64,000 nucleotides of DNA from Salinivirga cyanobacteriivorans (lineage in GTDB: Bacteria; Bacteroidota; Bacteroidia; Bacteroidales; Salinivirgaceae), in contig NZ_CP013118.1 of NCBI RefSeq assembly GCF_001443605.1, positions 2,909,501 through 2,973,500 of the forward strand, in the 5' to 3' direction. How positions within the stretch are numbered: position 1 is the stretch's first letter; every line of letters starts with the position of its first letter. Position numbers and translations under genes: made by a program. Of the stretch, positions 21,643 to 33,143 are shown in pieces. The notes below the pieces were generated by a model. That model did not search any database and had not been told where the DNA came from. It saw nothing but the letters and a program-made list of their open reading frames with translations.

Positions 21643-22929
21643 ATGACATTATCGGAATTTGTTGAAAGTAAAACGTATAAGACAATAATGAAATATGTAT
21701 ACGGCTGGGGCGCATCTGTCGTGCTAGCTGGTGCATTGTTCAAAATCCAGCACTACCCTGGTGCAGGCGCTATGCTTGTAGCCGGTATGAGTACTGAGGT
21801 ATTGATTTTCTTTTTGTCTGCTTTCGAGCCTTTGCACGAAGAACCAGACTGGACGCTGGTTTACCCTGAATTGGCTGGAATGACTAATGACCTGGACGAT
21901 GATTTGCCCCGTCAGGATTATGGTATCCAACGTGATAGCAGATTGTTTAATGTTTCAGAAGCACCACCACCAGCTCCTACACAAGCTGCACCTACACAAC
22001 AAGCTCCTGCTCCTCAAAGAAGTGGCGAAGCTCAGCCACAGGGTGTAGCCCCAGCTGGAGGAGGCTATCCGCCGGCAGGTGGGCAAAAAACATATGCGCT
22101 TGAGCGATTTGATGAGCTTCTTGAAAAAGCTGAACTCGGGCCGGATCTCTTTGTTAAAATGGGTGAAGGAATACAAAGGCTTTCAAATACCGCAGAAGAC
22201 CTGAATAAAATGCAAGATGTTGTTGCTGCCAATGAAAATTATGCTGCAAATATGCATAATGCATCAGAATCAGCACGACAGCTATCCGAAACATTTAATT
22301 CATCGAGTGATGTGGTTCAAAGCTCTACCAGCTCAATGAGTGAAGCTTCATTGAAAGCAGCCGAGAAAATGGAACAAACAGGAGATGACTTATCCAGTGC
22401 TGCAAGAGAAAGTGCTGAAACTATTAAGCATTCCTTTACAGAAGCTTCGAAAAACAGTGCAGCAAAAATTGAACAATCATTTGATGGCTTCTCTGATGCT
22501 GCTAAATCGAGCTCCGAAAATCTTGCCCAAAATGCCGAGAAAGCCGGACAGCATCTATTAGATGCAGCTAATGAAACCGGTAGCGTATTGAGCCAAAGCT
22601 ATCAGCAGCTCATATCTGAGATGGAATCCAGTATGCAAAACCTGAAATCAGGTAATCAGTCCTATATTGAGCAGATAGATGTTCAAAATAAACATCTTAC
22701 AGCCCTAAATTCAATATATGAACTGCAAATGCAAAATCTGAATCAACAGAATGAGCAATCTCAGGAGCTTTATAATAAAGCTAATCAGGCAATAGAAAAC
22801 ATGAGTGCTGCAGTTGGTGACACTCAAAAATATAAAGAAGAATTGAATAAATTAAATGATAATCTTGCCGCATTGAATAATGTTTATGGTAATATGTTAT
22901 CATCATTCAATCTTAACGTAAACGAATAA
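21643..22929 (+). CDS. gldL: T9SS motor protein GldL/PorL with extended coiled coil
   Basis: The product is 428 aa, long for the family (about 215 aa in Flavobacterium, about 310 aa in Porphyromonas). Two membrane helices span about residues 20-36 and 41-62. They retain the charged residues K34, H37 and E52 in FKIQHYPG and STEVLIFF, which fit the proton-path positions described for GldL. After a conserved FEPLHEEPDWTLVYPEL segment, a Pro/Ala/Gln-rich linker covers about 106-148. A Ser/Ala/Glu-rich coiled coil then runs to the C-terminus. GldL and GldM form the inner-membrane rotary motor driving T9SS. The extra coiled coil should project into the cytoplasm. Confidence 0.95.
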   Translation: MTLSEFVESKTYKTIMKYVYGWGASVVLAGALFKIQHYPGAGAMLVAGMSTEVLIFFLSAFEPLHEEPDWTLVYPELAGMTNDLDDDLPRQDYGIQRDSRLFNVSEAPPPAPTQAAPTQQAPAPQRSGEAQPQGVAPAGGGYPPAGGQKTYALERFDELLEKAELGPDLFVKMGEGIQRLSNTAEDLNKMQDVVAANENYAANMHNASESARQLSETFNSSSDVVQSSTSSMSEASLKAAEKMEQTGDDLSSAARESAETIKHSFTEASKNSAAKIEQSFDGFSDAAKSSSENLAQNAEKAGQHLLDAANETGSVLSQSYQQLISEMESSMQNLKSGNQSYIEQIDVQNKHLTALNSIYELQMQNLNQQNEQSQELYNKANQAIENMSAAVGDTQKYKEELNKLNDNLAALNNVYGNMLSSFNLNVNE

Positions 22930-22941
22930 GCTTATTGTATT

Positions 22942-24552
22942 ATGGCAGGTGGCAAAGAAACTCCCCGGCAGAAGATGATAGGAATGATGTATTTATTCCT
23001 CACGGCAATGCTTGCATTGAATGTTTCAAAGGAAGTTTTGCACTCTTTTGTACTTGTAAACGATAGCCTTTCCGCAACAGTAGATAATTTTACTGAAAAG
23101 AATAAAAGTATTTATAATGATTTCGAGAAACAAGCCTCTATGAACGAGGAGAAGGTTGGTAAGTGGAGAGATCTGGCCAATCAGGTTAAGGCAAAATCTA
23201 ATGAAATCAATGAATACATAAAAGAGTTGAAAGTTGAGGTTGTGCAGGCCGCTGATGGAGAAGATGCTCCCGCTATTACTGAAGATGGTGATATTATTGC
23301 CGAAAAAATTGAGGCAAAGGACAATCTTGACGTTGGTGGCGAAGTTATGGTTGTCAAAGGTCGAGGCCCCGTTCTTAAAGAGAAAATTATTGAGTTTCGG
23401 GAATTTTTGCTCGAAAATACAGATCCGAGCCATACTTTTATTAGAAAGTCTATTAATAAGAATTTAAATACCGATGATCCGCCGGCAGAAGAAGGTGCTC
23501 AGGTCTCCTGGACTTCACACCATTTTTCGCATATGCCGCTTGCTGCCGTATTAACTATGTTAACTAAAACGCAGTCGGATATTCGTAATGCCGAAGCAGA
23601 CATATTACGTTACTTTTACGGGCAGATAAGCGCTCAGGATTTTAAATTTAATGATCTTGAACCTGTTGTGCTGCCTACAAAGAGTAATTATGTACTCAAA
23701 GGCACAGAATATGAGGCAGAAGTGTTTATTGCCGCTCAGGATACAACGCAAAAGCCCAGTATTTATATTGGTGAATACCAACAAGATGAGAATGGTAGAT
23801 ATAGTATGGTTGGTAGTTATGATTCACTGGAGATTAAAAACGGACGTGGAATTTATCAGGTTAGAGCAAATACAAGAGGTGATAAGGAATGGGGTGGACT
23901 TATAGCTATGCGGGCTCCGGATGGTTCAATACAGCAATTCCCATTTGAGGCACAATATAAAGTAGAGGTGCCGACAGCTATTATTAGTGCTAGTGCGAAC
24001 CGGGTATTCTATTATGGTGTTCCGAATCCTTTGGAAGTTTCAGTTCCTGGCTTGCGGAAAGATCAATTAAAGCCGACAGCTACTAACGCACGAATTGTAT
24101 CCCATAGGGGAGGTTTAGCTGTGAAACCAAGTAAAAAAGGTGGAAAAATTAAGGTGAGCCTTTATGCTGATATCGATAACCAGAGAAAATTCATAGGTAG
24201 TAGTACCTTTAGTGTGAAGCAAATTCCCCCACCAACTCCCGTATTGCAACCCATTAACGTTAAATTTGGAGATATTGCAAAAGGAGAACTTGGCTTTGCA
24301 GACCGCGTTGATGCTAAACTAGAAGGCTTTATAATGGAAGATATTAAATATAAAGTTATAAGTTTTACTGTCAGCACTACTGATGAAGGATTTACTGTGG
24401 ATGAAGAAATTAACGGTGATCGGTTCAATCAGGCTGTAACACAGATGATTCAGAAAGCCAGTCGTAATCAGAAGATTACTTTTGAAGATATTAAAGCTGA
24501 AGGACCTGATGGTATTAAGGAGTTGAGCCCCATGGTCTTCACTATTAAATAG
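22942..24552 (+). CDS. gldM: T9SS motor protein GldM/PorM
   Basis: The product is 536 aa. It starts MAGGKETPRQKMIGMMYLFL, the near-invariant GldM N-terminus with a single membrane helix (about residues 12-32) that packs in the GldL bundle. The periplasmic part contains successive beta domains (GTEYEAEVFIAAQD, GVPNPLEVSVPG, PPTPVLQPINVKFGD). It reaches the GldK/GldN ring and couples the proton-driven motor to secretion. The final FEDIKAEGPDGIKELSPMVF is family-typical. It lies 12 bp after gldL and 41 bp before gldN. Confidence 0.96.
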   Translation: MAGGKETPRQKMIGMMYLFLTAMLALNVSKEVLHSFVLVNDSLSATVDNFTEKNKSIYNDFEKQASMNEEKVGKWRDLANQVKAKSNEINEYIKELKVEVVQAADGEDAPAITEDGDIIAEKIEAKDNLDVGGEVMVVKGRGPVLKEKIIEFREFLLENTDPSHTFIRKSINKNLNTDDPPAEEGAQVSWTSHHFSHMPLAAVLTMLTKTQSDIRNAEADILRYFYGQISAQDFKFNDLEPVVLPTKSNYVLKGTEYEAEVFIAAQDTTQKPSIYIGEYQQDENGRYSMVGSYDSLEIKNGRGIYQVRANTRGDKEWGGLIAMRAPDGSIQQFPFEAQYKVEVPTAIISASANRVFYYGVPNPLEVSVPGLRKDQLKPTATNARIVSHRGGLAVKPSKKGGKIKVSLYADIDNQRKFIGSSTFSVKQIPPPTPVLQPINVKFGDIAKGELGFADRVDAKLEGFIMEDIKYKVISFTVSTTDEGFTVDEEINGDRFNQAVTQMIQKASRNQKITFEDIKAEGPDGIKELSPMVFTIK

Positions 24553-24593
24553 TAAGAATAGTTAAAGAAAATTAAAAATTAAACGATAAACAC

Positions 24594-25439
24594 ATGAAAA
24601 AATTAGTGCTTTTCTCATTTACATTTGCCTTATTATTTTCTTTATTACCTACAAATGAGGCAAAAGCACAGGTTCTTGATGGTATTTATGAGAAAGAACA
24701 CGTGCCTAGCAGACGTCCTGTTCCATATTCACAACTGCGCGAAGCAGATGTGATGTGGAAAAAACGAGTATGGCGTTGTATTGATTTACGTCAAAAAATG
24801 AATTTTCATTTTTATTATCCGATCAATCGCATCAATGAGCGTATGAACCTTACAAACCTACTGGTTTATGGACAAACCCATGAAGGAGTAGTCTTGTATG
24901 ATGCTGACGAAAACGATCGTTTCACAACAATTCTTACAACCTCTGAAATCGAAGGAAAATTCGATGCAGGGACACAAGAGCGCAAGATCGTGCAGGATGA
25001 CGGTACTGAGATAGTTAAGGAGTTTTACCAGCCAATTAATTATGCTGAGGTAAAACAAATATGGCTAAAAGAGGAGTGGTTTTTTGACAGGCAACGCTCT
25101 AAAATGGAAGTACGCATTCTTGGAATCATGCCTATACGCTTCACCGAAGATCCAAATACCGGCGAATTGCAAAAAATACGCTTATTTTGGGCATACTATC
25201 CTGCAGTAAGACCAATTTTAGCCAATCATGAGGTGTTTAATCGTTTTAATGATGCAAAACGTCGTACATACGATGATATTTTCTTCAAAAGATTTTTCGA
25301 TAGCTATATCGTAAAAGAATCGAATGTATATGAAGATAGGCGTATTGCAGAATACCGTGATGGCCGGATGGCATTGTGGGAAGCACAAAAAATTAAGAAA
25401 GAGATGTTTAATTATGAGCAGGATCTCTGGTCATATTAG
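24594..25439 (+). CDS. gldN: T9SS ring protein GldN/PorN
   Basis: The product is 281 aa with a signal peptide (KKLVLFSFTFALLFSLL...EAKAQ). It has the GldN pattern LREADVMWKKRVWRCIDLRQKMN followed by FYYPINRINERMNLTNLL and FFKRFFDSYIVKESNVYEDRRI. GldN/PorN is periplasmic, binds GldK/PorK and contacts GldM. It is the last gene of the operon, followed by a strong bidirectional terminator at 25454. Confidence 0.96.
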   Translation: MKKLVLFSFTFALLFSLLPTNEAKAQVLDGIYEKEHVPSRRPVPYSQLREADVMWKKRVWRCIDLRQKMNFHFYYPINRINERMNLTNLLVYGQTHEGVVLYDADENDRFTTILTTSEIEGKFDAGTQERKIVQDDGTEIVKEFYQPINYAEVKQIWLKEEWFFDRQRSKMEVRILGIMPIRFTEDPNTGELQKIRLFWAYYPAVRPILANHEVFNRFNDAKRRTYDDIFFKRFFDSYIVKESNVYEDRRIAEYRDGRMALWEAQKIKKEMFNYEQDLWSY

Positions 25440-27428: not shown

Positions 27429-29003
27429 ATGAAAAAACTAATCCATATTTTATTCATTGTTCTAGTACCGCAAATAATAATTGCGGTATTAATTTACAAC
27501 TATCAGAATATTAAGAATGAAGGTAATCTTGAAGAATTGCAAGAGGCATACGCACAGGTTCCTCAGTCATCAGTAGATCATGCTGAGTTTGCTGTTCTGC
27601 AGCAAGATTTTGAAACGCCACATGAGGTAACTGAGGCATGTTTGTCATGTCATACTGAACGGGGGCAGGAGTTACTTAAAAGCTCACATTTTAAGTGGGA
27701 AAGAGAGACGTTTATACCCGGCAGAGGTGTTGTTTATTTGGGTAAAAATAATTTGATCAACAACTTTTGTACAGGTATAGCCGGAAGTGAACAAACATGT
27801 ACGCGTTGCCATGCTGGATTTGGATATTATGATACAACGTATAATTTTCATAATGAAAAGAACGTAGATTGCCTGGTATGTCATGATAATAGCGGGATCT
27901 ATAAAAAAGCCAAGGGTAGTGCAGGATATCCTGCAATGGGAGAAAATGCGCCGGATTATGGTGCTATAGCCCACCATATTGGAAGGCCAAACAAACAAAA
28001 TTGTGGAGTCTGCCATTTTTATAGTGCCGGAGGAAATAATGTAAAGCACGGGCAACTTGAAAAAGCCTTGCTAAACACCACAAAAGATGTGGATGTACAT
28101 ATGGCTCAAAATGGACTAGACATGGAGTGTGTGGACTGCCACAGTGCTGAAAATCATGTGATGAAAGGTCGTTATTATGGTATTTCATCCAGGGATTATA
28201 ACCGGGCAACCTGCGAGCAATGTCACAATGAGCGACCACACGAAGACGACATTATAAATGAGCATACTATTAAAGTAGCTTGCCAGACCTGTCATATACC
28301 TGAATATGCCAAGGTAAATGCAACTAAAATGTATTGGGATTGGTCTACAGCTTGCGATTTAAAAGATGGTAATCCATACTATGAACTCGATTCAATGGGC
28401 AATAAAGCCTATCTTTCAATTAAGGGTAGTTTTACATGGAAACGAAATGTAAAACCCGATTATACGTTCTTTAACGGAACAGCAGATCATTATTTATTAA
28501 CCGATGTCGTTGATACTTTCCCTGTACAAATCAATACACTTTTTGGTTCTTATGACGACAGAGAATCGAAAATTTGGCCGGTGAAAATTCACCGGGGCAA
28601 ACAACCTTATGATCCCCAGCAAAAACGTATACTGCAGGCTAAACTGTGGGATCCTGAACCGGGAAATGGTGCTTTGTGGGTCGATTTTGACTGGGATGCT
28701 TCGCTTAAAGCAGGTATGGAATATATTGGCCTGCCATATAGCGGTGAATACGAATTTGTTGAGACAGAAATGTATCTTCCATTGAACCACATGGTATCGC
28801 CTGCCACCAAATCGGTTTCATGTGCAGAATGCCATAACCGTGATAATAGCCGTATGGCAGGGTTGAGTGGTTTCTATATGCCCGGAAGAGACCGAAATAA
28901 CATGCTCGATTTAATCGGATGGATACTGGTACTGGGTTCCCTGGCAGGAGTACTTGTGCATGGAGGAATTCGAATTGCAATAAATAGAAAACAAAATCAT
29001 TAG
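27429..29003 (+). CDS. octaheme c-type cytochrome, tetrathionate reductase (Otr) family
   Basis: The product is 524 aa with exactly eight CxxCH haem sites, at C71, C124, C148, C192, C234, C262, C285 and C465. The segment VYLGKNNLINNFCTGIAG before the second haem is the signature of the Otr-type octaheme family. The Lys in GKNN (K106) is a candidate for the lysine ligand of the catalytic haem known in Shewanella Otr. Unlike soluble Otr it has membrane helices at both ends (about 5-24 and 492-515), so it should sit on the periplasmic face of the inner membrane. Otr reduces tetrathionate, nitrite or hydroxylamine in vitro. The true substrate is uncertain, and the five following genes point to sulfur. 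Confidence 0.93.
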   Translation: MKKLIHILFIVLVPQIIIAVLIYNYQNIKNEGNLEELQEAYAQVPQSSVDHAEFAVLQQDFETPHEVTEACLSCHTERGQELLKSSHFKWERETFIPGRGVVYLGKNNLINNFCTGIAGSEQTCTRCHAGFGYYDTTYNFHNEKNVDCLVCHDNSGIYKKAKGSAGYPAMGENAPDYGAIAHHIGRPNKQNCGVCHFYSAGGNNVKHGQLEKALLNTTKDVDVHMAQNGLDMECVDCHSAENHVMKGRYYGISSRDYNRATCEQCHNERPHEDDIINEHTIKVACQTCHIPEYAKVNATKMYWDWSTACDLKDGNPYYELDSMGNKAYLSIKGSFTWKRNVKPDYTFFNGTADHYLLTDVVDTFPVQINTLFGSYDDRESKIWPVKIHRGKQPYDPQQKRILQAKLWDPEPGNGALWVDFDWDASLKAGMEYIGLPYSGEYEFVETEMYLPLNHMVSPATKSVSCAECHNRDNSRMAGLSGFYMPGRDRNNMLDLIGWILVLGSLAGVLVHGGIRIAINRKQNH

Positions 29004-29026
29004 GCAATAACCTGAAAGGCAAAAAA

Positions 29027-29698
29027 ATGAAAAAAGTATATATCTATAAAAGTTTTGAACGTTTTTGGCACTGGTCCCAGGCCATGTTAATTATTTTTCT
29101 CGCCATTACAGGCTTCGAAATACATGGTTCGCTGGATTTATTTGGTTTTGAGCTGGCGGTAAAGTATCATAATGTTGCTGCAATTGCTTTCATTATTCTG
29201 ATTGTTTTTACCATTTTTTGGCATTTTACAACCGGTGAATGGAAACAGTATTTACCCACAACTAAAAATCTCCAGGCCCAAATACGTTACTATATTACCG
29301 GAATATTTCAGAATGCACCGCACCCGACACGAAAAACTACCCTTAGCAAACTTAATCCACTACAAAGGCTGGTTTATCTGGGATTGAAGGTTTTTATAAT
29401 TCCTTTGATGGTTGTTTCCGGATTGTTGTTTTTGTTTTACCGTTACCCGCAAAAGGGCGATATTGAATATATAAATGTGGACGGGCTTGAAAATATAGCT
29501 TATCTGCATACTTTTGGCGCCTTTCTGCTGCTGGCCTTTTTAGTTGTACACCTTTACCTTATTACTACAGGCCATACAGTAACATCGAACTTAAAAGCAA
29601 TGATTACAGGTTATGAAGAGCTCGAAGAGGAAGGTGAAGATATGGTCTCGGGCACAGAAACAGAAGCAAAAACTGAGGAAAATAATTCTAAATCATAA
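29027..29698 (+). CDS. membrane cytochrome b (b561/thiosulfate-reductase type)
   Basis: The product is 223 aa with four membrane helices at about 18-36, 46-66, 110-133 and 155-178. His residues in FWHWSQ, KYHNVAA, FWHFTTG, LHTFGA and VVHLYLITTGH are suited to bind two b haems. It belongs to the cytochrome b561/Ni-Fe-hydrogenase b/PhsC-like group that links the quinone pool to periplasmic redox proteins. Directly behind the octaheme cytochrome (23-bp gap), it is the obvious quinol partner. The C-terminal tail is strongly acidic (EELEEEGEDM). Confidence 0.9.
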   Translation: MKKVYIYKSFERFWHWSQAMLIIFLAITGFEIHGSLDLFGFELAVKYHNVAAIAFIILIVFTIFWHFTTGEWKQYLPTTKNLQAQIRYYITGIFQNAPHPTRKTTLSKLNPLQRLVYLGLKVFIIPLMVVSGLLFLFYRYPQKGDIEYINVDGLENIAYLHTFGAFLLLAFLVVHLYLITTGHTVTSNLKAMITGYEELEEEGEDMVSGTETEAKTEENNSKS

Positions 29699-29702
29699 TA
29701 CC

Positions 29703-30761
29703 ATGAAGAAACTATTCATATTCATACTGATTATTGCTGCTTTTGCGGCATGTCAGACTGAAAACAAATCAAAAGACAATAGTGCTGAATCAGCTGACCG
29801 GTTCAGTATTGTGATGAGCTATCTGGAAAGTAACGGAAATTATATAAACAGTGCTTCCATACCATCAATTATAAGCGCAAAAAAGCTTTATGGGCTTTTG
29901 GATCGCAATACACTGGTAATTGATATTCGCAAAGAGCCTCATTACCAGGATGGACATATTGCGGGAGCTGTAAATGTTAAATATAGCAACCTGTTAAATT
30001 ATTTTGAAAAGAATATTGACCCAGCTTCATTTGATGTGATAGCAATCGCATGTTATTCGGGCCAATCTGCCGGCTTTGCTACAAGCTTGCTGAGGCTTTT
30101 GGGCTACGACAATGTTTATTCGCTTAAATGGGGTATGAGTTCGTGGAAAAAGAAATTTGCTGACATGAAGTGGTCCAAAAAGACCAGTAACAAATATTTG
30201 GATGCCATTACAACAGAAAGTAAACCAAAAGCTGAATTTGGAGAATATCCTAAAATTATGTCCGAAGACAGCATGGCTTACAATATAATTCGTAAGAGAG
30301 CGCATAAAATGTTTAAAAATGGTTTTCGTCATTATGCAGTCAAGAATAATGTACTGTTTGAACAACCTGAATCATTTTATATAATCAACTACTGGCCGGA
30401 GAAGTTTTATAAAAAAGGACATATTCCCGGAGCCATACAGTATACACCAAAAAAATCATTAGACAGGGCTTCGTATCTTCAAACATTGCCCGTTGATAAA
30501 CCTGTTGTTCCTTATTGTTTTACAGGCCAGCACAGTGCTTATGTTACCGCATATTTAGCATTGATAGGGTATGAGGCCAGGACACTGCTATACGGTGCAA
30601 ATGGCTTTATGCATGATATGTTGGTTAATGAAATTGGTCATGCCTTTACCGAAAAGCAGGTAATGGATTATCCAACAAGTAAAGACCAATCGCAGACCAG
30701 GCCAAAAGCAAAGAAAGAAGAGAAATCAGAATCTACCGTCAGTGTTTCGGGTGGATGCTAA
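29703..30761 (+). CDS. lipoprotein with tandem rhodanese domains and C-terminal SGGC tail
   Basis: The product is 352 aa. ATG 29703 is chosen because it gives a lipoprotein signal with lipobox AAFAAC (C17); the longer frame overlaps the cytochrome b gene. Two rhodanese domains follow. The first has DIRKEPHYQDGHIAGAVN and active loop CYSGQSAG (C117). The second has KKGHIPGAIQYTP and CFTGQHSA (C272). Both catalytic cysteines are kept. A charged linker (about 325-345) leads to the final V-S-V-S-G-G-C, with Cys as the last residue. Rhodaneses move sulfane sulfur as a persulfide. The two downstream rhodanese proteins share the tail, which suggests a swinging sulfur-carrier arm (inference). Confidence 0.88.
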   Translation: MKKLFIFILIIAAFAACQTENKSKDNSAESADRFSIVMSYLESNGNYINSASIPSIISAKKLYGLLDRNTLVIDIRKEPHYQDGHIAGAVNVKYSNLLNYFEKNIDPASFDVIAIACYSGQSAGFATSLLRLLGYDNVYSLKWGMSSWKKKFADMKWSKKTSNKYLDAITTESKPKAEFGEYPKIMSEDSMAYNIIRKRAHKMFKNGFRHYAVKNNVLFEQPESFYIINYWPEKFYKKGHIPGAIQYTPKKSLDRASYLQTLPVDKPVVPYCFTGQHSAYVTAYLALIGYEARTLLYGANGFMHDMLVNEIGHAFTEKQVMDYPTSKDQSQTRPKAKKEEKSESTVSVSGGC

Positions 30762-30773
30762 AATAAAACTAGT

Positions 30774-31292
30774 ATGAGTCAACAAGGAAAAAAATACATG
30801 AACCCATACCTGGCAGGAGTGTCCTTAGGATTGCTCCTGTTGGCCATTTTTTATATTGCGGGGCATGGTTTGGGCGCAAGTGGCGCTGTTAAGCAATTTA
30901 CGGTTGCTGCAGTAGATGAGGTAGCGCCTGCACACACAGCAGATAATAGCTTTTATGCACCCTATGCCGGAGAAGATTACAGCATGTGGGATAACTGGAT
31001 TGTTTTTATGTTTATGGGCATGGTGATCGGTGGTTTTATTTCAGGCGCTGTATCAGACAGGTTAGGATTTAAAATAGAGAAAGGACCACGCATTGGCAAC
31101 GCGACCAGGCTACTGTTTGCGCTAATCGGTGGAGTACTGTTCGGAATCGGATCGCAGCTTGCCAAAGGGTGCACCAGCGGTGCGGCATTGAGCGGTATGG
31201 CGGCCCTGTCGGCATCTGGTTTTATAGCCATGCTGGCCATTTTTGGAGTAGGCTTTATTGTATCAATATTTTTTAAACGTCTTTGGAAATAA
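30774..31292 (+). CDS. YeeE/YedE-family half-transporter (first half)
   Basis: The product is 172 aa with four predicted membrane helices. It carries the family cysteine motif AKGCTSGAAL near residue 127. YeeE/YedE (TsuA) proteins import thiosulfate through a path lined by cysteines. The family is usually one ~350-aa chain of two related halves. Here the halves are separate genes, this one followed after 9 bp by the second. Neighbouring rhodanese and Otr genes support a sulfur role. Confidence 0.87.
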   Translation: MSQQGKKYMNPYLAGVSLGLLLLAIFYIAGHGLGASGAVKQFTVAAVDEVAPAHTADNSFYAPYAGEDYSMWDNWIVFMFMGMVIGGFISGAVSDRLGFKIEKGPRIGNATRLLFALIGGVLFGIGSQLAKGCTSGAALSGMAALSASGFIAMLAIFGVGFIVSIFFKRLWK

Positions 31293-31301
31293 ATTTATAA
31301 T

Positions 31302-32525
31302 ATGGGACCATTAATACCTTATGGAATTATAAACCCGGAATGGACAATGCCGATCATTTTTTTAATTGGTTTAGGCTTTGGAATGATTCTGGAACAGGCA
31401 GGTTTCTCATCGTCGCGAAAACTTGTTGGTACATTCTTCGGATACGACTTTGTTGTGCTGAAAGTATTCTTTACAGCGGCCATTACAGCGATCATTGGTA
31501 TCATTTTTATGGACTTTTTCGGTTTATTAGATACTTCAGTGATTTTCGTACATTCCAATTTTTTAAACAGCACGCTTGTTGGTGGAGCAATTATGGGTGC
31601 TGGCTTTTTGCTGGGTGGATTTTGCCCGGGCACCAGTGTAGCTGCAGGATCAATCGGTAAAGTTGATGCGCTTGTTTTTATTGGAGGTCTTTTTATTGGT
31701 GTGTTTATTTTTGGCGAGTTTTACGGAACTTTTGATGGGCTGTTTTCAGGCCACTATTTTGATCGCGAAAAAATATACACCCTGATCGGATTGGACAAAG
31801 GCACATTTGTATTCTGGCTAATTATTATCGCACTTTTTGCTTTTGCCATTGCAGGTTTCCTTGAAAGTAAAGTAAGCAACGAAGCATTAAAACCGGCCGA
31901 TGTAAAATACGAGGGCTATGGACTGGAAGTACTTTTATTGTTTGCCATTGCTGTTACCATTGCTTTTATGCCCGGTAAGTCGGTAAATACTTTTAATGAA
32001 CTTGATGAAAGCAAGGTGTATCAAAAGAGTCTTAACGATGCCCACAGAGTAAGTAGCGAAGAGCTTGCGTTTAATATTTTGCACGAAGTTGATGATATAA
32101 ACATCATTGATGTACGCAGCGAAGCAGATTTTAACCAGTTTCATTTACCCGGGGCCATAAATATTCCTTATCCCGAAATTACTAAAGCTCAATTTGCAGA
32201 AACTTTTAACAATATAATGGGTAAAAACATCCTGGTGTCGAATGGTGGGGTAACGGCAGAAAAGGCATGGCTCATTGTCACCAGAATGGGCTTTCAGCAT
32301 AACTATGTGCTCAACGGAGGTTTAAATAAGTTCATTAACGATATTTTTAATGCGCCAAAGCCCGACCCTGATGTAATTAAGATGGAAATTCACCATCAGT
32401 ACCGATTCCGTCAAAGAGCGGCTAAAGTATTTAAAGAAGGCGAAGCTAAAAAGATCGTTTCTGATAAAAAAGTTGAGGTACCCCAGAAAAAGCAACAACC
32501 AGTGCAGATCAGCGGTGGGTGCTGA
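31302..32525 (+). CDS. YeeE/YedE half-transporter fused to a Cys-less rhodanese domain with SGGC tail
   Basis: The product is 407 aa. Residues 1-220 are membrane helices of the second YeeE/YedE half, with LEQAGFSSSRKLVG and the cysteine motif GGFCPGTSVAAG. Residues about 245-350 form a rhodanese domain (NIIDVRSEADFNQFHLPGAI, LNGGLNKF). Its active loop reads LVSNGGVTAEKA, so the catalytic Cys is missing. A Lys/Gln-rich linker ends in V-Q-I-S-G-G-C. The only cysteines are the one in GGFCPG and the last residue. I infer that the tail supplies the sulfur-accepting thiol next to the channel exit. Whether that side is periplasmic or cytoplasmic depends on topology I cannot settle. Confidence 0.88.
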   Translation: MGPLIPYGIINPEWTMPIIFLIGLGFGMILEQAGFSSSRKLVGTFFGYDFVVLKVFFTAAITAIIGIIFMDFFGLLDTSVIFVHSNFLNSTLVGGAIMGAGFLLGGFCPGTSVAAGSIGKVDALVFIGGLFIGVFIFGEFYGTFDGLFSGHYFDREKIYTLIGLDKGTFVFWLIIIALFAFAIAGFLESKVSNEALKPADVKYEGYGLEVLLLFAIAVTIAFMPGKSVNTFNELDESKVYQKSLNDAHRVSSEELAFNILHEVDDINIIDVRSEADFNQFHLPGAINIPYPEITKAQFAETFNNIMGKNILVSNGGVTAEKAWLIVTRMGFQHNYVLNGGLNKFINDIFNAPKPDPDVIKMEIHHQYRFRQRAAKVFKEGEAKKIVSDKKVEVPQKKQQPVQISGGC

Positions 32526-32555
32526 TATTATGTTTATAAAAAAAATATGTAAATT

Positions 32556-33143
32556 ATGAATAGTCTAAGAAGTACCAGCCTTGTAATATTTGCACTCATC
32601 ATATTAGGTGCAATTATACGCAGCCTGATTCCTGCTAATTATGATGTCACAGCAGAAGAGACTGTAAGTCACGACGCTAAAAAGGCAGCGATGAGTTACC
32701 TTGCATTTTACAAAAAGTATAATAGCAAACAAATAAACCAATATCAAATCATTGATATTCGCGATAAATATGCTTTTGATAAAGATCATATTCCCGGGGC
32801 TGTCAATATTCCTTATGCAGAACTGTTAAAAAAATCGGGCCTTACGCAAATAAATAAAAAACCAGTGTTGGTATATGGCCAACAAGAAGCAACAAGCGCT
32901 GCAGCTACGCTGATGTTGTTTCAACTTGGGTTTGAAAATGTAAATTATTTGCCCGGTAATTTTCAAACAATAAAGCAATTTGTACTTGAGGAATTTGATC
33001 CGGTTCACAGTTTTTACAGTGCCGAAAAGAAGCAATACAATTATCAAAACTATATTCGCACCAATCAGCAAGCGGCTGGGCAGGCACCACAAAAACAAAC
33101 CGGGGCCCCTGAAGAAACAATTAATGTATCGGGGGGATGCTAA
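32556..33143 (+). CDS. membrane-anchored rhodanese-like protein with SGGC tail as its only cysteine
   Basis: The product is 195 aa with an uncleaved N-terminal anchor (about residues 8-25). A rhodanese domain follows at about 45-150 (IIDIRDKYAFDKDHIPGAVN, YLPGNFQTI). The active loop is LVYGQQEATSAAA: Gly occupies the place of the catalytic Cys. The whole protein has a single cysteine, the final residue of I-N-V-S-G-G-C after a Gln/Ala/Pro-rich flexible linker. Conventional sulfurtransferase chemistry is therefore impossible in this domain. A sulfur-carrier role of the tail thiol, as in SoxY, is the simplest reading. It is the last gene of the operon. Confidence 0.85.
   Translation: MNSLRSTSLVIFALIILGAIIRSLIPANYDVTAEETVSHDAKKAAMSYLAFYKKYNSKQINQYQIIDIRDKYAFDKDHIPGAVNIPYAELLKKSGLTQINKKPVLVYGQQEATSAAATLMLFQLGFENVNYLPGNFQTIKQFVLEEFDPVHSFYSAEKKQYNYQNYIRTNQQAAGQAPQKQTGAPEETINVSGGC

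Follow-up and report, generated by a model that had tools for sequence, protein, structure and literature searches.

The locus and its tailed proteins

The stretch of the Salinivirga cyanobacteriivorans genome analyzed here (64,000 nucleotides; contig NZ_CP013118.1, positions 2,909,501 to 2,973,500; called the window below) contains an operon of six genes at 27429-33143. The genes lie on the same strand with short gaps between them, and minus-strand frames flank both ends. Their order is OTR, CYB, RhdA, YeeE1, YeeE2-Rhd and RhdC (Table 1). The three proteins that contain rhodanese domains, RhdA, YeeE2-Rhd and RhdC, all terminate in S-G-G-C-stop and use different codons to do so, as an initial inspection of the DNA letters alone (the sequence-only reading) had pointed out. 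These C-terminal tails are the subject of this paper, and we refer to the proteins that have them as armed.

Table 1. Genes of the operon and the three tails, in window positions.
Feature	Position	Strand	Basis or codons
OTR, octaheme c-type cytochrome of the tetrathionate-reductase family	27429..29003	+	TIGR04315, 548 bits (cutoff 375)
CYB, b561-type membrane cytochrome	29027..29698	+	PF01292, 103 bits
RhdA, two rhodanese domains and C-terminal SGGC	29703..30761	+	PF00581 in two stretches; alignment
RhdA S-G-G-C tail	30747..30758	+	TCG GGT GGA TGC, stop TAA
YeeE1, half-size YeeE/YedE sulfur-transport protein, single Cys (KGCTSG)	30774..31292	+	PF04143, 74 bits
YeeE2-Rhd, second YeeE half, rhodanese domain without catalytic Cys, GGC tail	31302..32525	+	PF04143, PF00581, alignment
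YeeE2-Rhd S-G-G-C tail	32511..32522	+	AGC GGT GGG TGC, stop TGA
RhdC, N-terminal membrane helix, one rhodanese domain without catalytic Cys, flexible arm (predicted)	32556..33143	+	PF00581, 53 bits
RhdC S-G-G-C tail	33129..33140	+	TCG GGG GGA TGC, stop TAA

The pattern [ST]-G-G-C-stop has 14 matches in the S. cyanobacteriivorans genome, and the reversed pattern, which served as a control, has nine. Only the three window proteins are long frames ended by the pattern (195, 382 and 407 codons); the remaining 11 matches belong to frames only 5 to 34 codons long, and one of these ends in TGG, which is not a stop. The S-G-G-C ends of the three window proteins are not due to chance. The end is absent from the four other rhodanese proteins found in this genome, one of which ends in C-S-K-C. 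A rhodanese encoded at C1:3086618-3086896 (L092) has another kind of cysteine-rich tail, GDGCHDCHGDCSKC.

The sole PDB match of OTR at 1e-5 is 1sp3 (386 bits), with homology across residues 56-473 of 524, and CYB is presumed to be its quinol link. RhdA has a catalytic cysteine in both domains (CYSGQS and CFTGQH) and, from its N-terminal sequence, is probably a lipoprotein; the start at 29703 was chosen over a longer frame from 29613 because it opens a lipoprotein-like signal. The terminal cysteine of RhdC is the only cysteine in that protein. PF04143 was found in both YeeE halves; Cys108 of YeeE2 (GGFCPG) is invariant in 17 aligned YeeE2-Rhd proteins, and the one cysteine of YeeE1 would be its channel cysteine. 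Pfam recognizes only Rhodanese, Sulf_transp and a weak DUF6691 in the armed proteins, and no SoxY domain.

Conservation of the terminal cysteine

A search with full-length RhdC, tail included, covered 295 genomes of the same order; 75 of them matched at 1e-8 and 40 neighbourhoods were taken. Searching 395 genomes of the phylum added another 30 loci, and 79 were named via RhdA alignment in a scan of bacterial and archaeal species; these 79, which are among the best 80 of 445 relatives, belong to Bacteroidota or Chlorobi/Chlorobiota. Homologues were assigned by hidden Markov models trained without the last 30 residues. Before counting, we removed open reading frames (ORFs) that were open at the 3' end, proteins with identical last 150 residues (347 reduced to 302) and 90% near-copies (302 reduced to 283). 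A few of the rows counted are probably stray rhodaneses, for example two in L052, one of which ends in GGCGD and is counted as tailed. The homologues include a fourth protein, RhdB, which is the stand-alone form of the rhodanese domain fused to YeeE2.

A cysteine occurs within the last three residues of 66/66 RhdB, 33/35 YeeE2-Rhd, 71/77 RhdC and 70/105 RhdA proteins. As a background, the 40 neighbourhoods contain 330 other complete ORFs of 120 codons or more, of which none ends in cysteine and four have one in the last three residues. Of the 240 tailed proteins, 204 have nothing after the cysteine, 34 have one further residue and two have two further residues; in 68 of the 73 operons with at least two tails, the cysteine is at the same distance from the C-terminus in all of them. 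GGC, or GGC plus one residue, ends 213 of the 283 homologues. In these 213 tails the cysteine codon is TGT in 119 and TGC in 94, all four glycine codons are used, and the stops are TAA (149), TGA (33) and TAG (31); this mixture of stops rules out selenoprotein read-through past the tail. Loss of the tail at random, which would have spoken against a functional arm, is not what the homologues display, since RhdB, YeeE2-Rhd and RhdC lack it in 0, 2 and 6 cases, respectively, and RhdA, which mostly retains its catalytic cysteine, in 35.

Among the six RhdC exceptions, four belong to a single Draconibacterium-like group; of the other two, one is probably a stray rhodanese and one has a cysteine five residues from the end. 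Three-frame translation at the ends of nine exceptions revealed no hidden GGC end, so frameshifts were dropped as an explanation and the tail losses examined look genuine. L077 and L080, which were among the nine, end in C-D and are therefore counted as having the cysteine. A rhodanese-like ORF outside the module (L052:15896-16405, minus strand) ends in SSGGCGD, which is closer to the SoxY GGCGG than the module tails are.

The Gly-Gly before the last residue also resembles carriers of the ThiS/QbsE kind, which work through a Gly-Gly thiocarboxylate, and one could imagine that the cysteine is clipped off to leave such a carrier. We consider this very improbable. EGC (12) or DGC (1) replaces GGC in 13 of the 66 RhdB proteins while the cysteine itself is present in every one, three loci have GGLC instead, and the operon's proteins include no E1-like activating partner in Pfam.

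Lost catalytic cysteine, flexible arm and N-terminal anchor

The rhodanese nucleophile is missing from nearly all of the armed proteins other than RhdA. A cysteine stands at the nucleophile column in only 2/66 RhdB (54 have serine), 0/35 YeeE2-Rhd and 2/77 RhdC proteins. In RhdA it is present in 98/105 first domains and 96/105 second domains, the latter count being inflated because one of the two RhdA peptide search patterns contained the second catalytic cysteine. The tail holds the sole cysteine beyond residue 45 in 43/66 RhdB and 37/77 RhdC proteins, the window RhdC included. Since the nucleophile is missing from the domain and a cysteine is kept on the arm, the thiol needed for sulfur chemistry would sit on the arm. 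From their sequences, the carriers thus look like dead rhodaneses whose thiol has been relocated to a flexible arm. In one operon an RhdA (L060:9263-10300) has lost both catalytic cysteines and the tail; it is apparently fully inactive and yet retained. C-x-x-C is found just past the lost nucleophile site in the RhdC of L059, L060, L063, L075 and L079.

The AlphaFold2 model of RhdC has a mean predicted local distance difference test score (pLDDT) of 86, with an N-terminal helix and a rhodanese domain (residues 41-150) whose blocks score 92-98; the top-listed PDB matches in a fold search are rhodanese-domain proteins. The last 35 residues score about 55-63 and no structure is modeled past residue 174, so the arm is predicted to be flexible. 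The YeeE2-Rhd model has a mean pLDDT of 64 and an unreliable membrane part, and we used only its rhodanese domain and low-confidence tail.

At the other end of the proteins, a hydrophobic segment or lipobox-like motif is present in 64/64 RhdB and in all but two of 77 RhdC proteins; by a simple motif, the lipobox-like form accounts for 9/77 RhdC and 71/103 RhdA. A start that looks like a lipobox, instead of a plain membrane helix, is seen in the RhdC of L068, L071, L073, L074, L077 and L081. Such a swap of anchors fits an extracytoplasmic rhodanese domain. Reductases of the Phs/Psr and OTR types are periplasmic, and it is this location together with the lipobox-like forms, not the model, that leads us to place the rhodanese outside.

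The terminal position of the tail might also suggest a sorting or anchoring signal, possibly one that is cleaved. This is hardly to be expected, because the proteins already have their anchor or lipobox-like motif at the N-terminus (75/77 RhdC and 64/64 RhdB), the RhdC model has no helix past residue 174, and the cysteine is the very last residue in most of the tailed proteins (204/240).

Two types of reductase

The module is found with either of two unrelated reductases, OTR or a Phs/Psr-type molybdoenzyme. Type 1 operons have the order OTR-CYB-(RhdA)-YeeE1-YeeE2Rhd-(RhdC) and type 2 operons the order PhsA/PsrA-FeS-NrfD-YeeE1-YeeE2-RhdB-RhdC-(RhdA). For example, Draconibacterium orientale FH5 has OTR-CYB-YeeE1-YeeE2Rhd ending in TGGCS, and Maribellus maritimus 5E3 has a type 2 operon in which RhdB ends in SGGC and RhdC in AGGC. 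The 131 distinct operon records consist of 39 linked to OTR, 49 linked to the molybdoenzyme and 43 without an assigned reductase (cut, mixed or alone). The catalytic subunit of type 2 has Thermus polysulfide reductase, 2vpw, as its best PDB match (674 bits; one protein searched), and four such proteins score 465-512 bits against the PhsA equivalog NF012032, below its cutoff of 694. We call the enzyme Phs/Psr-like because it falls below the PhsA cutoff and 2vpw is closest. The S. cyanobacteriivorans genome has no close PhsA homologue (best 22.5 bits).

OTR is present in 63 of the 295 genomes. The RhdC profile matches 61 of these at 1e-12, a threshold at which it also catches other rhodaneses, and 53 at 1e-17; in genomes without OTR it matches 87 and 65, respectively. 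Eight of the ten OTR genomes without an RhdC match at 1e-17 were inspected (all except G251 and G287): five have a tailed rhodanese beside OTR, one locus is cut by a contig end and two have none in the stretch. In all, 20 OTR loci were inspected, mostly picked because their RhdC match was weak or missing. Twelve are minimal operons, OTR-(CYB)-YeeE1-YeeE2Rhd, and all 12 keep the tail cysteine (three of them as GGLC plus one residue). Of the other eight, two combine OTR-CYB with a tailed rhodanese but without YeeE, one runs into a contig end and five have no rhodanese in the stretch. No b-type cytochrome was recognized in the OTR operons L208, L212 and L218, in which YeeE2-Rhd ends in GGLC plus one residue. 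Loci L133, L141, L173, L224 and L225 have OTR and a long cytochrome b (~440 residues), and no rhodanese in the same gene run.

Tails are matched within operons

Paralogues of one operon often have nearly identical tails, such as KEEEEGGC three times, KEVEGGCG three times, or SGGGGGGC. To compare tails we took the six residues preceding the two just before the cysteine. RhdB and RhdC tails of the same operon score 21.95 in molybdoenzyme operons (n=39), compared with 5.26 after shuffling (0 of 5000 shuffles as high), and 4.23 compared with 1.09 in OTR operons (n=22; 11 of 5000), although these shuffles overstate the significance because copies had been removed only when the last 60 residues of the tailed proteins were identical, which leaves part of the kinship among operons in the data. 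Ranked against other operons (chance 0.5), the tails have an own-operon rank of 0.95 with the molybdoenzyme and 0.67 with OTR, whereas the bodies of the same proteins have ranks of 0.55 and 0.51. In six-residue steps away from the cysteine the effect size falls from 2.21 to 1.03, 0.97, 0.46, 0.50 and -0.14 in molybdoenzyme operons; the OTR series is 0.52, 0.18, 0.21, 0.19, -0.21 and 0.27. Because the tails match within operons while the bodies barely do, the tails of an operon are probably read by a single shared partner.

Gene conversion of whole paralogues was considered as the source of the shared tails and rejected, since belonging to one operon makes the bodies barely more alike and, in a tree built from 70 sampled domains (few columns; 27 of 67 forks open), paralogues cluster almost wholly by gene (5 changes, minimum 4). 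Conversion limited to the last codons could still contribute.

Matching ends would also be expected if the terminal cysteines were structural or redox residues, either joining the rhodaneses through disulfides or binding a metal, and several proteins of one operon do bear similar tails. However, minimal operons have a single armed protein, the cysteine is at the very end and mostly follows Gly-Gly as in SoxY, and no second conserved cysteine was seen in the tails listed; a structural or redox role is therefore improbable.

The sequence-only reading had also described a beta-like V-x-[VI] before SGGC. This proved typical of the octaheme-linked operons, with valine or isoleucine at -4 in 59/83 OTR tails, but the molybdoenzyme-linked tails are mostly rich in Lys/Glu or in Gly, with glutamate at -3 in 63/114. 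A rule that hydrophobic tails indicate OTR and acidic tails the molybdoenzyme was tried and reduced to a trend, because the inspected OTR loci are often Lys-rich and ancestry is mixed with partner.

Which partner reads the arm

The YeeE pore and the reductase are both candidates to receive the arm. The arms might serve mainly for sulfur import, in which case the armed rhodanese would deliver sulfane sulfur to the YeeE1/YeeE2 pore for uptake into the cytoplasm and the reductase would be a mere neighbour. One armed rhodanese is fused to YeeE2, and the 12 minimal operons described above, which contain both YeeE halves, all keep the tail cysteine. There is also a precedent, as SoxYZ has been proposed to load the YeeE-family protein SoxT (PMC11582611). 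Six Draconibacterium-type loci have no OTR, Phs/Psr or NrfD homologue in the stretch; in these, the RhdB beside YeeE is tailed in 6/6 and the tail is gone from RhdC (4/4) and from the neighbouring RhdA (6/6). Elsewhere in five of the six genomes there is an OTR or strong PhsA homologue, and L159 has only a weak one. However, tails are retained without YeeE in the stretch in OTR-CYB-RhdA (L211), in OTR-CYB-RhdC-like (L217) and in molybdoenzyme operons (L132/L240, L155 and L182, of which L155 and L182 are short stretches), and so YeeE is not the sole reader of the tail. On balance, import as the main purpose seems unlikely. These few loci would suggest that the RhdB arm serves YeeE and the reductase, and that the RhdC and RhdA arms serve the reductase.

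A proposed mechanism

The tail trait is real, conserved and mechanistically informative. The idea of swinging thiol arms like that of SoxY came from the sequence-only reading and has held up in further sequence tests, namely the non-random loss of the tail, the terminal position of the cysteine and the N-terminal anchor. We think it likely that the tails are such arms, that they carry sulfur and that they serve the reductase. The operon would then be a periplasmic sulfur-respiration module in which RhdA is the working sulfurtransferase, and YeeE2-Rhd and RhdC are carriers whose flexible C-terminal arm bears the reactive thiol at its tip. RhdA, or the reductase itself, would load the arm cysteine with a sulfane or thiosulfonate group, and the arm would swing the loaded group into the reductase, which is OTR here and would be the Phs/Psr-type molybdoenzyme in other operons. 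Quinol would supply the electrons with which the reductase cleaves the S-S bond and returns the thiol. The arm fused to YeeE2 may also give sulfur to, or take sulfur from, the YeeE1/YeeE2 pore. The sequences themselves show the architecture of the proteins, its conservation, the missing catalytic cysteine, the tails shared by paralogues of an operon and the link to two kinds of reductase, and the flexible arm comes from the model. What we infer in this scheme is the sulfur on the cysteine, the docking to the reductase, the direction, the substrate, the extracytoplasmic side and the role of YeeE.

Several observations weigh against this scheme. The tail is absent from 35 of the 105 RhdA proteins, from two YeeE2-Rhd (L049 and L058) and from the Draconibacterium-type RhdC. 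Some cysteine occurs at most seven residues after the nucleophile column in 23/77 RhdC, often as C-x-x-C, and there may be a working residue there. The matching of tails is weak in OTR operons, its significance is overstated as noted above, and the 43 operons without an assigned reductase fall outside the type-specific tests. In molybdoenzyme operons the linker (-9 to -20) is also alike within operons (ranks 0.71 and 0.73), so a general sequence style explains part of the matching. Finally, the substrate of OTR need not be sulfur, because nitrite or hydroxylamine may likewise be reduced by this enzyme (PMC7887784).

A broader proposal, to which we would give about even chances, is that rhodaneses that gave up catalysis form an undescribed class of extracytoplasmic carriers, with a terminal-cysteine swinging arm that evolved independently of SoxY and was plugged into two unrelated S-S reductases. 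OTR and the Phs/Psr-type enzymes would then use protein-bound sulfur and not free thiosulfate, tetrathionate or polysulfide, and the last residues of the arm would form a docking code that changes in concert among the carriers of an operon. The physiological substrate of OTR and of many Phs/Psr-like enzymes is unsettled. If these reductases do act on sulfur held by an arm, assays with free tetrathionate or polysulfide would miss the physiology. The system would also be a clean case of a convergent swinging thiol arm, with a sequence code for partner recognition. Since the RhdC profile was met in 148 of the 295 genomes of the order at the loose threshold, the module may be a common, unnoticed part of sulfur metabolism in Bacteroidota.

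Relation to known systems

The Sud protein of Wolinella and the Aquifex rhodanese reportedly supply a Psr/Sre-type enzyme with sulfur carried on the rhodanese active-site cysteine. Like these, the armed proteins are rhodaneses tied to a reductase, but they have lost the active-site cysteine and bear the thiol on a C-terminal arm instead.

The closest parallel for the arm is SoxY, where a C-terminal arm has Gly-Gly and a sulfur-carrying cysteine; the armed rhodaneses mostly have a terminal Gly-Gly-Cys. The canonical SoxY arm contains VTIGGC (PMC11237559), and the cysteine of the SoxY GGCGG is the sulfur-binding residue (PMC6067878). The differences are that the armed proteins have a rhodanese domain (by PF00581 and by fold), occur several per operon and are linked to reductases. 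None of the 283 homologues ends in GGCGG, the cysteine being last or having one or two residues behind it; PF13501 (SoxY) has no match in the S. cyanobacteriivorans genome at 0.01, and SoxZ was absent from the operon's proteins in Pfam, the rest of the genome not having been searched for it. Convergence is the best explanation for these arms, the armed proteins not being relatives of SoxY. In lucinid symbionts otr adjoins a divergent soxY (soxY-S3) and soxZ (PMC11237559), an independent case of OTR paired with a SoxY-family carrier, albeit one whose arm shows several changes. The LbpA proteins of the Hdr-like pathway have a cysteine near the C-terminus with glycine neighbours, which has been likened to SoxY (PMC6067878), but they are lipoate-binding proteins, whereas the armed proteins are rhodaneses.

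The other components have known relatives as well. The Shewanella octaheme tetrathionate reductase (1sp3) has a homologue here, but in an operon with a b-type cytochrome, YeeE halves and armed rhodaneses. Nitrite (PMC7887784, PMC11237559) and hydroxylamine (PMC7887784) have been given as further substrates of OTR. Type 2 operons share catalytic, Fe-S and NrfD subunits with the Phs/Psr reductases (2vpw), but continue with YeeE halves and armed rhodaneses and have a catalytic subunit under the PhsA equivalog cutoff. A Psr operon that encodes a secreted three-domain rhodanese has been reported (PMC12142623). As in the YeeE/YedE systems (PmpA/PmpB, SoxT), there are two half-size YeeE proteins with a conserved cysteine in each; half-size PmpA/PmpB have been described, and SoxYZ has been proposed to pass sulfur to SoxT1A (PMC11582611). 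What differs is the armed dead rhodanese that is fused to one of the halves or follows it. The suggestion that the arrangement is not a described system agrees with full-text literature searches and passages of the likeliest papers (supplements, preprints and most subscription papers lie outside these), in which no C-terminal cysteine arm on rhodaneses was mentioned.

A defence-system reading of the locus was dropped, as PADLOC has no match for the three armed proteins. Elsewhere in the window, at 21643-25439, lie three genes that resemble the gliding/type IX secretion genes gldL, gldM and gldN.

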